NCBI GenBank assembly: GCA_019637095.1
Contig: JAHBWG010000010.1
Span: 62,001-126,000 of the forward strand
Direction: 5' to 3'
Length of the DNA: 64,000 bases
Source of the DNA: Sandaracinaceae bacterium
Lineage (GTDB): Bacteria; Myxococcota_A; Polyangia; Polyangiales; Sandaracinaceae
Shown: in pieces, positions 32,824 through 39,836 of the stretch
Layout of the letters: every line of letters begins with the position of its first letter
Numbering within the stretch: position 1 is the stretch's first letter
Translations under genes and position numbers: made by a program
Notes under the pieces: generated by a model
What the model was told of the DNA's origin: nothing
Database searches by the model: none
The model's input: only the letters and a program-made list of their open reading frames with translations

Positions 32824-34545
32824 ATGAACGTTCGTAGGGACGGAGGGCCGTTGGATCCAGACCCTACACCGACGCCGCCACGCCACGCGCAGATCGGCGC
32901 GAAGTACCGCATCCTCGGCGTCGCCGATCGCGGCGCCGGAACGATTCTCTACGAAGCAAAGAACGTTCACACCGATCGGCCGCTCTACGTCGAGCTGCTC
33001 GACGTGCCGGACGACGGCGCGCGCGAGCGCTTCCTCCACGAGGCGGAGATCGCCGCGCAGCTCACACACGGGAACATCGTCACCGTGTACGACATGGGGC
33101 GGACCCGCTCGGGCTCGCTGTACGTGGTGCAGGAGCGGGTCGAGGGGGAGCTCCTGTCCCACTACGTCGAGCGCGCAGGCCGGCTGAAGCTGACGGAAGC
33201 GGCCGAGATCGCGCTCGCGCTGATGGACGCCCTCTCGGTCGCGCACGCGGCCGGCATCGTGCACGGGAGCGTCACGACCGATCACGTCCGCATGGTCCCC
33301 TTGAGCCCGCACCGCCGCGTGCCGAAGCTGCTCGATCTCGGGCTGGCGTGGGAGCTCGGGCGCGAGGGGATCACGCGCCTCACCGTCGGCGTCCGCCCCG
33401 ACGGCCGGCCGCCGCTCGTGGCGCCCGAGGTGCTCGTCCACGATCGCGTCGCGGACCCGCGCGTCGACGTGTGGGGGATGTCGGCGCTTCTGTTCCACTG
33501 CCTGACCGGGCGGCTCCCGTTCGAGGCGCGGAGCCCCCGCACCTTGACCCGCCAGCTGCTTAGGATGCAGGCGCCGCTCGCCTCGTCGTTCCACCCCGGC
33601 ATCCACCCGCGGGTCGACGCGTTCCTCGAGCGCGGCCTCGCGCGCGATCCCGCCGAGCGCTTCGCGGACATGCACGACGCCCGCCTCGAGCTCGCGGCCC
33701 TCGTCCGCGAGGTCGGTGACGCGACCGTGGAGTGGGAGGAGCGACCCACCGACACCTACCGCTCACCGTCGGTGGAGACGAGCGCGGTAGCCGCCTTGCC
33801 GCTGCGGCTCGGCATGCTCGTCCCGACGCAGATCGTCGCTGCCTCGACCGAGGCCGCCGCGGACGCGCTCCGCGCCGCGCTCGGGGAGCGCACCGACGTG
33901 ATCGGCTTCGCGACCTACGCCGGCCTCGTCGAGGCGCTCGCCGAGGGGGAGATCGATCTCGCATGCCTCCCGCCCGTCGCGTACGTGCGGGCGCGCCTCG
34001 CCGCCGAGGTGCAGCTCCTCTTGTCGGTGGAGCGCTCCGGTCGGCTCGGCTACGCCTCGGCGCTCCTCGGGCGCAGAGGCGTCGTCGAGAGCATCGAGGA
34101 CGTGCGCGGCAAGCGCGCGGCGTGGGTCGACAAGTGGTCGGCGGCCGGGTACCTCGCCCCGCGCGCGCTGCTCCGCGAGCGGGGCATCGACGCGGACGCG
34201 GAGCTCGCCTCGCAGGGCTTCCTCGGGAGCTACGACGCGGTGCTCGAGGCGCTCTCGGATGGCAGCGCCCAGGTCGGCGCCGCGTACTGCGCGCTCGGCT
34301 CGCGCGGTCGCCTGAAGCGGACGGCGTGGACCCGCGATCATCCGGTCGTGGTGCTCGGGGTGCGCGGCCCGATCCCGAGCGAGGCGATCTGCGCCCGGCC
34401 CGGGCTCGCGGTCGGAACGGCGATGCGCACGATCCGGGGCCTCACGGATCCGGCGCGCTCCGAGGCGTTCCGCCGGCTCCTCGACGCGTCTCGCTTCGTG
34501 GTGGCCGATCCGAAGGCCTACGACGCGCTCGGCGACGCGTTCTGA
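32824..34545 (+). CDS. Probable Ser/Thr pseudokinase fused to a PhnD-like substrate-binding domain
   Basis: 573 residues from ATG 32824. The N-terminal half (about 25-295) aligns with Hanks-type kinases: AQLTHGNIV, LLDLGLAWE (DLG at 171-173), APEVL at 200-204, DVWGMSALLFHCLTGRLPF. Key catalytic residues are absent: the VAIK lysine position reads E57 (YVELL), and the HRD-x-K-xx-N loop reads VHGSVTTDHV (H147, then Gly and Ser for Arg-Asp; no Lys or Asn). The second half (about 322-573) matches the phosphonate/phosphite-binding PhnD family (PLRLGMLVPT; FATYAGLVEALAEGEIDLACLPPVAYVRA; ESIEDVRGKRAAWVDKWSAAGYLAPRALL). There is no signal peptide or membrane segment, so both halves appear cytoplasmic. 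It follows the BamB-like gene by 59 bp. Confidence 0.8.
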   Translation: MNVRRDGGPLDPDPTPTPPRHAQIGAKYRILGVADRGAGTILYEAKNVHTDRPLYVELLDVPDDGARERFLHEAEIAAQLTHGNIVTVYDMGRTRSGSLYVVQERVEGELLSHYVERAGRLKLTEAAEIALALMDALSVAHAAGIVHGSVTTDHVRMVPLSPHRRVPKLLDLGLAWELGREGITRLTVGVRPDGRPPLVAPEVLVHDRVADPRVDVWGMSALLFHCLTGRLPFEARSPRTLTRQLLRMQAPLASSFHPGIHPRVDAFLERGLARDPAERFADMHDARLELAALVREVGDATVEWEERPTDTYRSPSVETSAVAALPLRLGMLVPTQIVAASTEAAADALRAALGERTDVIGFATYAGLVEALAEGEIDLACLPPVAYVRARLAAEVQLLLSVERSGRLGYASALLGRRGVVESIEDVRGKRAAWVDKWSAAGYLAPRALLRERGIDADAELASQGFLGSYDAVLEALSDGSAQVGAAYCALGSRGRLKRTAWTRDHPVVVLGVRGPIPSEAICARPGLAVGTAMRTIRGLTDPARSEAFRRLLDASRFVVADPKAYDALGDAF

Positions 34546-36484: not shown

Positions 36485-39400
36485 TCAGCGCGACTCGCCC
36501 GGGTCGTGCGCCTCGCCGTCCTCGGGCGGCGGCGGCAGCGCGACGCCGAGCTCGAGGCCGAGCTCGCGCGCCGTGGCCGCGAGCCGGTTCTGGCTGGCGG
36601 GGACGCCCTCGGCGTGGCGGAGCGCTTCGCGCAGGACCTCGCGCGCCTCGTCGCTCCGCCGGTTCGCGTGCAGCGTCCGCGCGAGGCCCGCCGCGGCGGC
36701 GCTGTGGCCCGGGTACGCGCGGAGCGCGCGGCGGAGCATCAGCGCCGCGCAGCCGCCGTTGCCGCCGCGCAGGCACCGCTCGCCGATCTCGTACGCGGTC
36801 TCCGCCTGCGCCCGGCGCCCGCGCACCGCGAGCGTCCCGAGCCGCCGCGCCGCCTCGCGATCGCCCGCCGCGAACGCGCAGCCCTGCGCGTGGAACGCGA
36901 CCTCGTCCTCGTCCCGCGCGAGCGCGTCGACCTCGGCAGGCGCCTCGCGGAGCGCGCTGCACGGCCCGCGCAGCTCGCGCTCGACGTAGTCGAGGAGCCC
37001 GCGGTCCGACGCGACGCCGGACCGCCGCGCGAGGTCGGCGGCGACCCGGAGCGCGTCGGGCTCGCCGACGGCGAGGCTCGCGCGCAGCAGCGGCGCGACC
37101 TCGGACGGCAGCGTGGCCCGCGCGGCGGCGCGCGACAGCGCGGTGCGCGGCCAGCCCTGGCTCGTGCGCAGCAAGTCCGCGCGCAGCGCGGCGCGGGGCT
37201 CGCGCGAGGCGTCCCACGCGCCGAGCGCGCCGGTCACGTCGCCGCGCGCCTCGGCGAGCGCCCCGTCGACCCACGCACGCGCCGCGGGGTCGAGGCCGAG
37301 CCCGTCGAGCGACGCCGCGAGCCGCGACAGCGCGTGCGGGCGGCTCACCGTCGCGGCGACGCGGCGCACGAGCGCCTCGGCGAGCCCGTTGCCCTCCCAC
37401 GCGCCCTCGCCCGCCCACCACGGGACCTCCCGCAGCGCGTGGTCGAGGTCCGGCGCCGCGACCCGCGCGGACTGCGGCGTCGCCGCGAGCTCGAACTCGA
37501 GCAGCGGCCGGTCGTCGCGGATCGACGGCGCGCCCGCACCGAGCGCGCGGGCCGACGCGGAGTCGAGCTCCATCGTGCGGAGCAGATCGAGCCGAGCGCC
37601 GAGGTGCAGCGGTCGCAGCGTGTCCGAGAGACGCGCGAGGCGCGCGTCGAGGCGCGCGTCGAACCGCACCGGCCGCGAGGAGGCGACGAACACGAGGCTC
37701 GTGCCCTCGGCGATGAAGCCCGACACGTGCGTGAACTCGTCGGTGAGCGTCCGGACGACGGCGCGGATCTGTCGCAGGTGGATGCGGAACAGGTTGATCC
37801 AGACGACCAGCACGCCGCCGTCGGTGAGCGCGTGGCGCGCCTCGGCGAAGAACTCGCGCGTGTAGAGCGCGCTCGAGCCGGCGAGCCACGGATGCGACGG
37901 CTGCGAGACGATCGCGTCGTAGGTGCCTGCGGGGGCCAGCGCGAGCCGGTTGCGCGCGTCGTCGATCGCGAGGCGCGCGCGGGGGTCGTCGAGCGGGAAC
38001 GGGACCCTGCGCGCCTGGTGCATCATGCGCGCGGCGTCCACCACCGCCGCCTCGAGCTCGACGACGTCGACCTGCTCGAAGCCGCCGGCGAGCAACAAGC
38101 GCGTGGTGTGCCCGCCGCCGAGGCCGATCGCCATCGCGCGGCCCGTGCGCTCGGGGAACAGCACCGCGGCGCCGCCGAGCAGCCCGACCTCCGCGCCGAA
38201 GCCGGGATCCGTGGCGCGAAAGCCCGACTCCGGGCGCCCGTCGTTCGAGAGGCCGAGCCCGTTGCCCATCCGCTCCACGGTGACCGTCGAGGCGCGCCCC
38301 TCCCGCAAGAAGACCACCGGCTCCCGCCACGACGGCCCCGGCCCCTCGAGCATGGCGCGCAGGGGGTCGTTCGACACGTGCAGTAAGAAAGGTAGGTTGA
38401 CGGTCGGCCCGGTGAGGAGCAGGCCGACGCCGAGCGCGAGCGGCAGCGTGAGCGCGACGGCGCGCACCGCCGGCGCCTGCGCCAGCATCCCGCGGCGGAG
38501 CGCGAGCCCGGCGACGACGAGGTGCACGAGCGCGACGAGCAAGAGCGACGCGTCCACCCCGAGCCACGGGACGAGCAGGAACCCGGCGCCGAGCGACCCG
38601 ATCAGCGCGCCTACGGTGTTGGCGGCGAGCAGGCGCCCGGTGCCGGACGCGGGCTCGTCGCCTCGCCCTTCGGCCATCGCCCAGACGAGCGGCAGCCCGG
38701 TGCCCGACACGATGGCGAGCGGCAAGAGGAGCAGCGCGGCGACGAGCAGCATCGTAGTCGGCCGGTGCGGCACGAACGACAGCTCGCCCGCGAGCAGGGG
38801 CAAGAGCCGCACGAGGTGGGGCACGGCGAACATCGCGACGACGATGAGCGCCGCCGCGAGCGCCTGGGTCGCGCCGAGCGCGAGCGCCGGGCGCGTGCGG
38901 CGCGCGAGCCAGCGCCCTACGAGGGCGCCGACCGCGATGCCCGTCAGGTAGCAGACGAGCATGCTGGCGAACGCCTGCGTCGTCGCGTGCATCACGGTGC
39001 GCAGGACCCGCGTCCAGAGCACCTCCGCGGCGAGCGCGGCGAGCCCCGTGCCGAGCGCGAGGCTCGCGACGAGCGCAGGATGGACCGGCGCGGCGCCCTC
39101 CTCCTCGGGCTGCGCGGGCGTCGGTGCGGCGGCGGGTGCGTCGTCGGCGCCGACCACCCGTACCCGGCCGTACGCGATCACCGCGAGCGCCGCCGCGACG
39201 AGGCTCGCGATCGCCGCCACGTAGACCGTGCTCGTCGCGCCAGCGCGCGGGATCGCGTAGAGCCCCGCGACGCCCGCCCCCGCCATCGCGCCGAGCGTGT
39301 TGATCGCGTAGAGCCCGGTCACGCCGCGCGCCCACTCGGCGCGGCCTCCCACGAGCAACGCGACGACCGGCAGCGTCGCGCCCATCAAGAGCGTCGGCGG

Positions 39401-39775
39401 CACGAGCAGCGCGAGCGCGAGCGCGAGCCGGACGGCCGACAGCGTCGCGCTCGAGGCGTCCGCCCCCACGGCCGCGTATGCCGCCCCGGTCCACGGCACG
39501 AGCCAGGGCGAGGCCGCGGCGTAGATCGCGATGATCCCCTCGAGCACGGCGTAGACGTAGGCGGGGCGCCGCACGCGGCCGGCGTATCGCGCCGCGGCCC
39601 AGCTCCCGAGGCCGAGCCCGAGGAAGAACGCGGCGAGCACGGTCGCCACCGCGAGATCGCCGACGCCGAACACCCGGTGCAGCATCCGGGTCCAGCTCAT
39701 CTCGTAGACCAGCGCGGCGAAGCCGGAGAGCAGGAGCGCGAGGTGGAGCGCCGCGCGGCGGGACCATTGGATCAC
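36485..39775 (-). CDS. Fused membrane/spermidine-synthase-like protein with C-terminal TPR region
   Basis: About 1096 residues from GTG 39775 (TTG 39814 would add 13). The N-terminal half has many membrane segments with the same landmarks as 6316-8937: LLSGFAALVYEMSWTRMLHRVFG and FFLGLGLGSWAAARYAGR. The middle is the methyltransferase-fold domain: LGGGHTTR (glycine loop), VVELEAAVVD, DDARNRLA, DAIVSQPSHPW. As in the split pair the catalytic Asp motif of true spermidine synthase is replaced, here by SQPS, so aminopropyl transfer is doubtful. The C-terminal 300 residues are helical TPR-like. Everything carried by two genes at 4178-8937 is in one polypeptide here. Confidence 0.8.
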   Translation of the reverse strand: MIQWSRRAALHLALLLSGFAALVYEMSWTRMLHRVFGVGDLAVATVLAAFFLGLGLGSWAAARYAGRVRRPAYVYAVLEGIIAIYAAASPWLVPWTGAAYAAVGADASSATLSAVRLALALALLVPPTLLMGATLPVVALLVGGRAEWARGVTGLYAINTLGAMAGAGVAGLYAIPRAGATSTVYVAAIASLVAAALAVIAYGRVRVVGADDAPAAAPTPAQPEEEGAAPVHPALVASLALGTGLAALAAEVLWTRVLRTVMHATTQAFASMLVCYLTGIAVGALVGRWLARRTRPALALGATQALAAALIVVAMFAVPHLVRLLPLLAGELSFVPHRPTTMLLVAALLLLPLAIVSGTGLPLVWAMAEGRGDEPASGTGRLLAANTVGALIGSLGAGFLLVPWLGVDASLLLVALVHLVVAGLALRRGMLAQAPAVRAVALTLPLALGVGLLLTGPTVNLPFLLHVSNDPLRAMLEGPGPSWREPVVFLREGRASTVTVERMGNGLGLSNDGRPESGFRATDPGFGAEVGLLGGAAVLFPERTGRAMAIGLGGGHTTRLLLAGGFEQVDVVELEAAVVDAARMMHQARRVPFPLDDPRARLAIDDARNRLALAPAGTYDAIVSQPSHPWLAGSSALYTREFFAEARHALTDGGVLVVWINLFRIHLRQIRAVVRTLTDEFTHVSGFIAEGTSLVFVASSRPVRFDARLDARLARLSDTLRPLHLGARLDLLRTMELDSASARALGAGAPSIRDDRPLLEFELAATPQSARVAAPDLDHALREVPWWAGEGAWEGNGLAEALVRRVAATVSRPHALSRLAASLDGLGLDPAARAWVDGALAEARGDVTGALGAWDASREPRAALRADLLRTSQGWPRTALSRAAARATLPSEVAPLLRASLAVGEPDALRVAADLARRSGVASDRGLLDYVERELRGPCSALREAPAEVDALARDEDEVAFHAQGCAFAAGDREAARRLGTLAVRGRRAQAETAYEIGERCLRGGNGGCAALMLRRALRAYPGHSAAAAGLARTLHANRRSDEAREVLREALRHAEGVPASQNRLAATARELGLELGVALPPPPEDGEAHDPGESR

Positions 39776-39836
39776 CGGCGAGCGAGGATGCGCCTCCCCC
39801 CTCGCTCGCGTCAAAGAGATCCGCGGCGAGCTTCAC

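Follow-up and report, generated by a model that had tools for sequence, protein, structure and literature searches.

A kinase-fold domain joined to a PhnD-like domain in one predicted cytosolic protein

The window, by which we mean the whole 64,000-nucleotide stretch of DNA analysed here, carries a gene in which a kinase-fold domain is joined to a domain of the PhnD-like binding proteins (Table 1). Its frame is open throughout (573 codons), with a third-position GC content of 92-95%, and the true start may be the TTG at 32851, behind GGACGGAGG, instead of the ATG at 32824, a choice that leaves both domains untouched. A Pfam scan matched Pkinase (PF00069) to residues 37-280 (E = 2.9e-23; 83.1 bits, cut-off 31.7) and Phosphonate-bd (PF12974) to residues 339-566 (E = 1.3e-30; 107 bits against a gathering score of 27), so that the two domain assignments of the first-pass annotation, a kinase fold followed by a PhnD-family half, both stand when searched by HMM. 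The protein had also been called cytoplasmic, and indeed we found neither a signal peptide nor a membrane helix in it (highest Kyte-Doolittle 19-residue mean, 1.6), which places the binding half in the cytosol.

Table 1. Features of the fusion gene, with positions in the window
Feature	Position	Strand	Basis
Fused gene, pseudokinase + PhnD-like (PF12974) domain, 573 aa	32824..34545	+	Translation, Pfam, AlphaFold2 model
Kinase-fold domain, PknA/PknB type, residues 24-300	32893..33723	+	PF00069, PDB PknB, VIA-align PknA 4ow8
E57 codon at the VAIK (beta3) lysine	32992..32994	+	Lys in 25/25 motif-intact fused relatives
HGSVTTDH (147-154) at HRDxKxxN; D153 the sole Asp within	33262..33285	+	Alignment
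DLG (171-173) at DFG, Asp kept	33334..33342	+	Alignment
Flexible low-confidence linker, residues 301-325, without membrane helix	33724..33798	+	pLDDT, hydrophobicity
PhnD/PtxB/AioX-like type II binding-protein domain, residues 326-573, cytosolic	33799..34542	+	PF12974; sequence and fold matches
WSAAGY pocket signature (438-443), at the STS oxyanion motif of PtxB	34135..34152	+	Clade alignment, PMC5700983
Y470 at the pocket His of PtxB/PhnD/AioX	34231..34233	+	Clade alignment

An AlphaFold2 model built on 39 aligned sequences gave two confident domains (mean pLDDT 86.2), and confidence dropped only at the N-terminus, in the linker at 305-322 (pLDDT below 50) and in the activation loop at 175-190; at a pTM of 0.59, the model does not settle how the two halves are placed relative to each other. 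Both folds were recovered by structural comparison. Using VIA-align, the kinase half superposed on PknA (4ow8) with a Z of 32.2 and an rmsd of 1.9 over 265 residues (Z 28-32 against PknA/PknB), and a sequence search of the PDB returned PknB as its nearest solved structure (5.8e-23). For the binding half, Foldseek returned PtxB (4.2e-18), then ArrX and AioX (E 4e-18 to 3e-15 overall), and the nearest solved structures by sequence were PtxB-type phosphite/phosphonate binding proteins. While residues 24-300 thus resemble the PknA/PknB-type Hanks Ser/Thr kinases in fold and sequence, the window protein differs from these in lacking the Lys, the HRD Asp, the Asn, the PASTA domains and the membrane helix.

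Loss of catalytic residues in the kinase half

We read the catalytic positions from an alignment of the kinase half to PknB and 27 related fused kinases (see below). In all 25 fused relatives with intact motifs the four catalytic positions are Lys, Asp, Asn and Asp, and only the last of these, D171 of the DFG motif, is kept in the window protein. E57 stands at the VAIK lysine, as the first-pass annotation had pointed out, and because none of the eight lysines of the protein lies at residues 47-121, a shifted alignment is unable to restore the beta3 lysine. In the catalytic loop, H147-G148-S149 takes the HRD position and H154 that of the Asn, which upholds the earlier description of an altered loop except at T151: several HRD-intact relatives also have Thr or Ser at this 'K' of HRDxK, and we therefore do not count it as a defect. 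Along with D171, the alphaC Glu (E73), P201-E202 of APE, the alphaF Asp (D215) and R279 of subdomain XI are retained, in agreement with the DLG and APE motifs already reported to remain.

Conservation reaches 85% or more in 36 kinase columns across the 25 motif-intact relatives. Of these columns the window protein retains 25, purely structural ones included, and has lost 11 (0 to 8 are lost per motif-intact relative), mostly ATP or catalysis sites (T40, E57, G148, S149, T152, H154 and L172). Bacterial pseudokinases have been defined by the absence of at least one of the beta3 Lys, the HRD Asp and the DFG Asp (PMC12599244), and two of these three are missing here. The GLW pseudokinase family was considered and rejected, as the window protein has HGS, not GLW, at the HRD position. 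These alignments strongly support a loss of catalysis and predict that the kinase half is a pseudokinase.

WNK kinases use a glycine-loop residue to supply the Lys in place of the usual lysine, and an active Ser/Thr kinase relying on alternative residues in this manner would agree with the well-kept fold and with the retained alphaC Glu and DFG Asp. We consider such activity extremely improbable, since T40 rather than Lys occupies the glycine-loop place used by WNK and since the losses extend to the Asp that acts as catalytic base and to the Asn that binds Mg. An unorthodox transferase, for example one transferring AMP as SelO does, with D171 and a displaced D153 as metal or base residues, also strikes us as very unlikely. 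D171 is kept, and D153 of the window HGSVTTDH falls at the Asp place of the SelO HGVMNTDN (PMC12599244, table 1), but this motif likeness is short and may be due to chance, SelO retains the Lys and Asn (WHLK, NTDN) where the window has E57, with no lysine nearby to replace it, and H154, and a profile scan with E values allowed up to 10 gave no hit to SelO.

A recurring fusion family with mostly intact kinases

With the binding half as query, we searched 57 relatives first and next 290 genomes from the class and 379 from the phylum, which led to another 27 kinase-PhnD fusions, spread over 24 genomes of the class. All four catalytic residues (Lys, HRD Asp, Asn, DFG Asp) occur in 25 of the 27. 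Kinase-PhnD fusion is a recurring architecture, mostly with kinases that appear active by their motifs, which makes the window protein a degenerate member of a largely active family; its unusual feature is the dead kinase half, not the fusion itself. No relevant description of a kinase-PhnD fusion was found in the literature searched, in which the cytosolic fusion and its repeated decay (see below) look undescribed.

The closest relatives are soluble fusions (L053, L054, L056, L059, L060, L063 and others) that share domain order, linker and pocket signature with the window protein but have intact kinase motifs. In the kinase tree the window protein lies within a clade of 12 soluble fusions (100/97), on the longest end branch (1.89 compared to a median of 0.6), and in the binding-domain tree it lies within the matching 23-row clade (100/100). 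That both halves fall in matching clades indicates that the fusion was inherited and descends from motif-intact fusions. Nearest to the window's binding half, with 46-51% identity, are those of L024 and L025 (loci that, with extended flanks, are L053 and L054), whose genomes belong to the same family. Subtracting binding-domain from kinase identity gave a mean of -7.8 points in pairs with the window protein versus +2.0 among motif-intact relatives; measured by sequence identity, the binding half evolves more slowly than the kinase half in the window lineage. The faster change of the kinase half in a frame that is still open fits a lost catalytic constraint with the fold kept, and does not by itself exclude decay.

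In six fusions (L079, L080, L081, L082, L084 and L085) a hydrophobic stretch of membrane type separates the kinase from the binding domain, a feature seen in none of the window's clade; these six form a separate clade in the binding-domain tree. Their binding domain should accordingly sit outside the membrane, in the classic style of receptor kinases. At another locus (L057:9576-11659, minus strand) kinase and binding domain lie in overlapping frames, owing to a gene frameshift or an assembly error; the frame had seemed kinase-free, and we did not count it as a kinase loss. A second kinase gene (L053:6665-8593, minus strand) directly adjoins a motif-intact fusion in genome G006. Open frames with a PhnD-like binding domain also occur in several genomes from another family of the same order (L070, L071, L072, L073, L074, L076 and L078), and the ones that were scanned (L070, L072 and L074) have a BPD_transp_1 permease in the same frame, like a one-piece binding protein and permease. 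The search for close relatives in the genome contigs yielded generic kinases only; genome G000 has at least 153 protein kinase matches, the best 30 of which, by profile, all have an intact HRDxKPxN.

Independent kinase decay beside the same type of binding domain

Two proteins from another family of the same order (L095 and L096) likewise join a pseudokinase to a binding domain of the window's clade. In the alignment, both have GFG for DFG, along with Lys to Arg and Asn to His changes in L095 and HRD to HRG in L096, and their kinase halves fall in a different lineage of the kinase tree from the window's. On the binding-domain tree the pseudokinase label needs at least two changes. Since other residues were lost in another kinase lineage, kinase decay beside this binding domain has occurred on at least two occasions. 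The sisters of L095 and L096 in the binding-domain tree, L093 and L094, are without any kinase.

Two further fusions, L065 and L038, have intact key residues, yet have lost 8 and 6 conserved columns, respectively, and show 51% identity in the kinase half versus 80% in the binding half. With fast-changing kinase halves and degenerate glycine or activation loops, they may represent intermediate stages of this kinase decay. Of the two parts of these proteins, the binding domain is the more stable.

The binding pocket departs from that of phosphite and phosphonate binding proteins

Phosphite is held in PtxB by Tyr55, Tyr100, Ser130, Thr131, Ser132 and His160 (PMC5700983), and a HMMER alignment placed Y365, Y410, S439, A440, A441 and Y470 of the window protein at the equivalent positions. 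The two Tyr and the first Ser of the oxyanion site are thus kept, while Ala-Ala replaces Thr-Ser and Tyr470 replaces His. W438, S439 and G442 are invariant in the window's binding-domain clade (22 of 22 rows), and the Y470 site is Tyr in 15 of these 22 rows, compared to His in 47 of 48 other rows. The window's binding half also has two nearly invariant residues altered (W381 to C and D520 to E), and it misses the curated cut-offs of TIGR01098 (82.9 versus 112.05) and of TIGR03431 for PhnD (53.4 versus 261.1). As the pocket signature differs from the STS-H of PtxB and PhnD, phosphonate is not the predicted ligand, and the pocket residues point to another ligand as likely; for the phosphonate-, phosphite- or thiamine-type ligand proposed in the first-pass annotation, we found no specific support. 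The likeness to PhnD/PtxB (PF12974, TIGR01098) therefore extends to the fold and to Y365, Y410 and S439, whereas the window protein is set apart by its cytosolic location, its lack of an ABC partner and its SAA plus Tyr.

The TPR and BamB-like pair is conserved without the fusion gene

The flanking genes with Pfam matches encode TPR, BamB-like, SulP and spermidine-synthase-like proteins. The upstream TPR and BamB-like genes are syntenic in the family, where 9 of 10 genomes gave a BamB-like match, and in genomes G001 and G007 the homologue of window gene 39846 comes right after BamB; one segment, present in the window and missing in these two genomes, comprises the genes for the fusion, the SulP transporter and the spermidine-synthase-like protein. 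On this synteny we rejected a functional link to the YfgM/BamB-like pair behind which the first-pass annotation had placed the gene: the pair is conserved without the fusion gene, and its proximity is positional only and functionally uninformative. Within this lineage-specific segment, the minus-strand gene at 36485-39814 encodes 1109 residues that combine a weakly MFS-like N-terminus with a spermidine-synthase domain and TPR. While the proposed survey of Myxococcota fusions and their neighbours did yield the fusions described above, it revealed no other conserved neighbour among 17 clade loci, where the cross-locus matches were mostly antisense readings of the fusion gene.

Proteins with PF12974 are usually transporter parts, and PADLOC models of PD-T4-6 kinases match the kinase half (best 7.8e-51), so that a part of a phosphonate ABC transporter or a PD-T4-6-like defence kinase might be envisaged. 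Either role is barely credible, as the PADLOC matches cover the kinase domain, which is expected of kinase domains generally, and as no ABC genes were seen adjoining the fusion and the signal peptide is lacking. We rejected a role in phosphonate transport because of location, motif and neighbours.

The absence of the fusion gene from the syntenic place in relatives, common for dispensable genes, bears on whether the gene is decaying, with a dispensable fusion whose kinase half drifts without function or of which only the binding domain is still used. Such decay would also account for the longest end branch in the kinase tree, for W381C and D520E and for the kinase-free binding domains of the same clade in L093 and L094, but we regard it as unlikely, given that the 573 codons are still open with the GC bias noted above, that 25 of the 36 conserved kinase columns persist and that the same pseudokinase state is kept in two genomes of a second lineage.

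Discussion

We think it reasonably probable that the window protein is a non-catalytic, ligand-responsive cytosolic regulator whose ancestor was an active fusion of a PknB-type kinase with a PhnD-like domain. This explanation is favoured because E57, S149 and H154 stand where 25 of 25 relatives have Lys, Asp and Asn, because the confident two-domain model has one half like PknA/PknB and the other like PtxB/ArrX/AioX, and because the L095/L096 lineage reached the same state by other losses; counting against it are the two altered residues of the binding half and the location of the gene in a segment that relatives lack at the corresponding position. The ancestor would have been an active PknB-type kinase joined to a PhnD-like small-molecule-binding domain, whose kinase half then would have lost ATP positioning and phosphotransfer in the window lineage while retaining its fold. 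The binding domain may close on a cytosolic small molecule, and closure could alter how the kinase-fold half docks a partner, candidates being a former substrate or any of the genome's kinases, of which there are at least 153. The kinase-fold half would then act as a scaffold, a decoy or an allosteric partner instead of an enzyme. Thus, of the ligand-sensing pseudokinase that had been hypothesised, the pseudokinase is supported by the alignments, and ligand sensing is plausible as the favoured prediction.

Both elements have precedents, as pseudokinases and PhnD-like sensors are already known separately. AioX and ArrX are PhnD-like proteins that serve as signal inputs (PMC5908839), as the window's binding half may do, but unlike it they are periplasmic, separate polypeptides that act on a histidine kinase, and AioX keeps a Ser, Ser, His pocket. 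EssB/YukC and MviN are bacterial pseudokinases that serve as scaffolds (PMC12599244), using a kinase fold without phosphotransfer, as the sequence suggests for the window protein, but they are membrane proteins of other families with no binding-protein domain. No described case joining a PhnD-like input to a pseudokinase was found in the literature searched. More tentatively, the PhnD-like flytrap domain may gate the pseudokinase, forming a catalysis-free cytosolic switch that arose at least twice from active sensor kinases within one order.

If so, this order would hold a natural series whose steps are the active kinase, the pseudokinase and the binding domain by itself. Little is known of what bacterial pseudokinases do, and few carry an obvious input domain, while the window pseudokinase comes with a binding domain with a conserved pocket, with motif-intact close relatives and with a second lineage that has its own loss of catalysis. 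This combination makes the role of a kinase fold after the loss of catalysis testable by side-by-side biochemistry.
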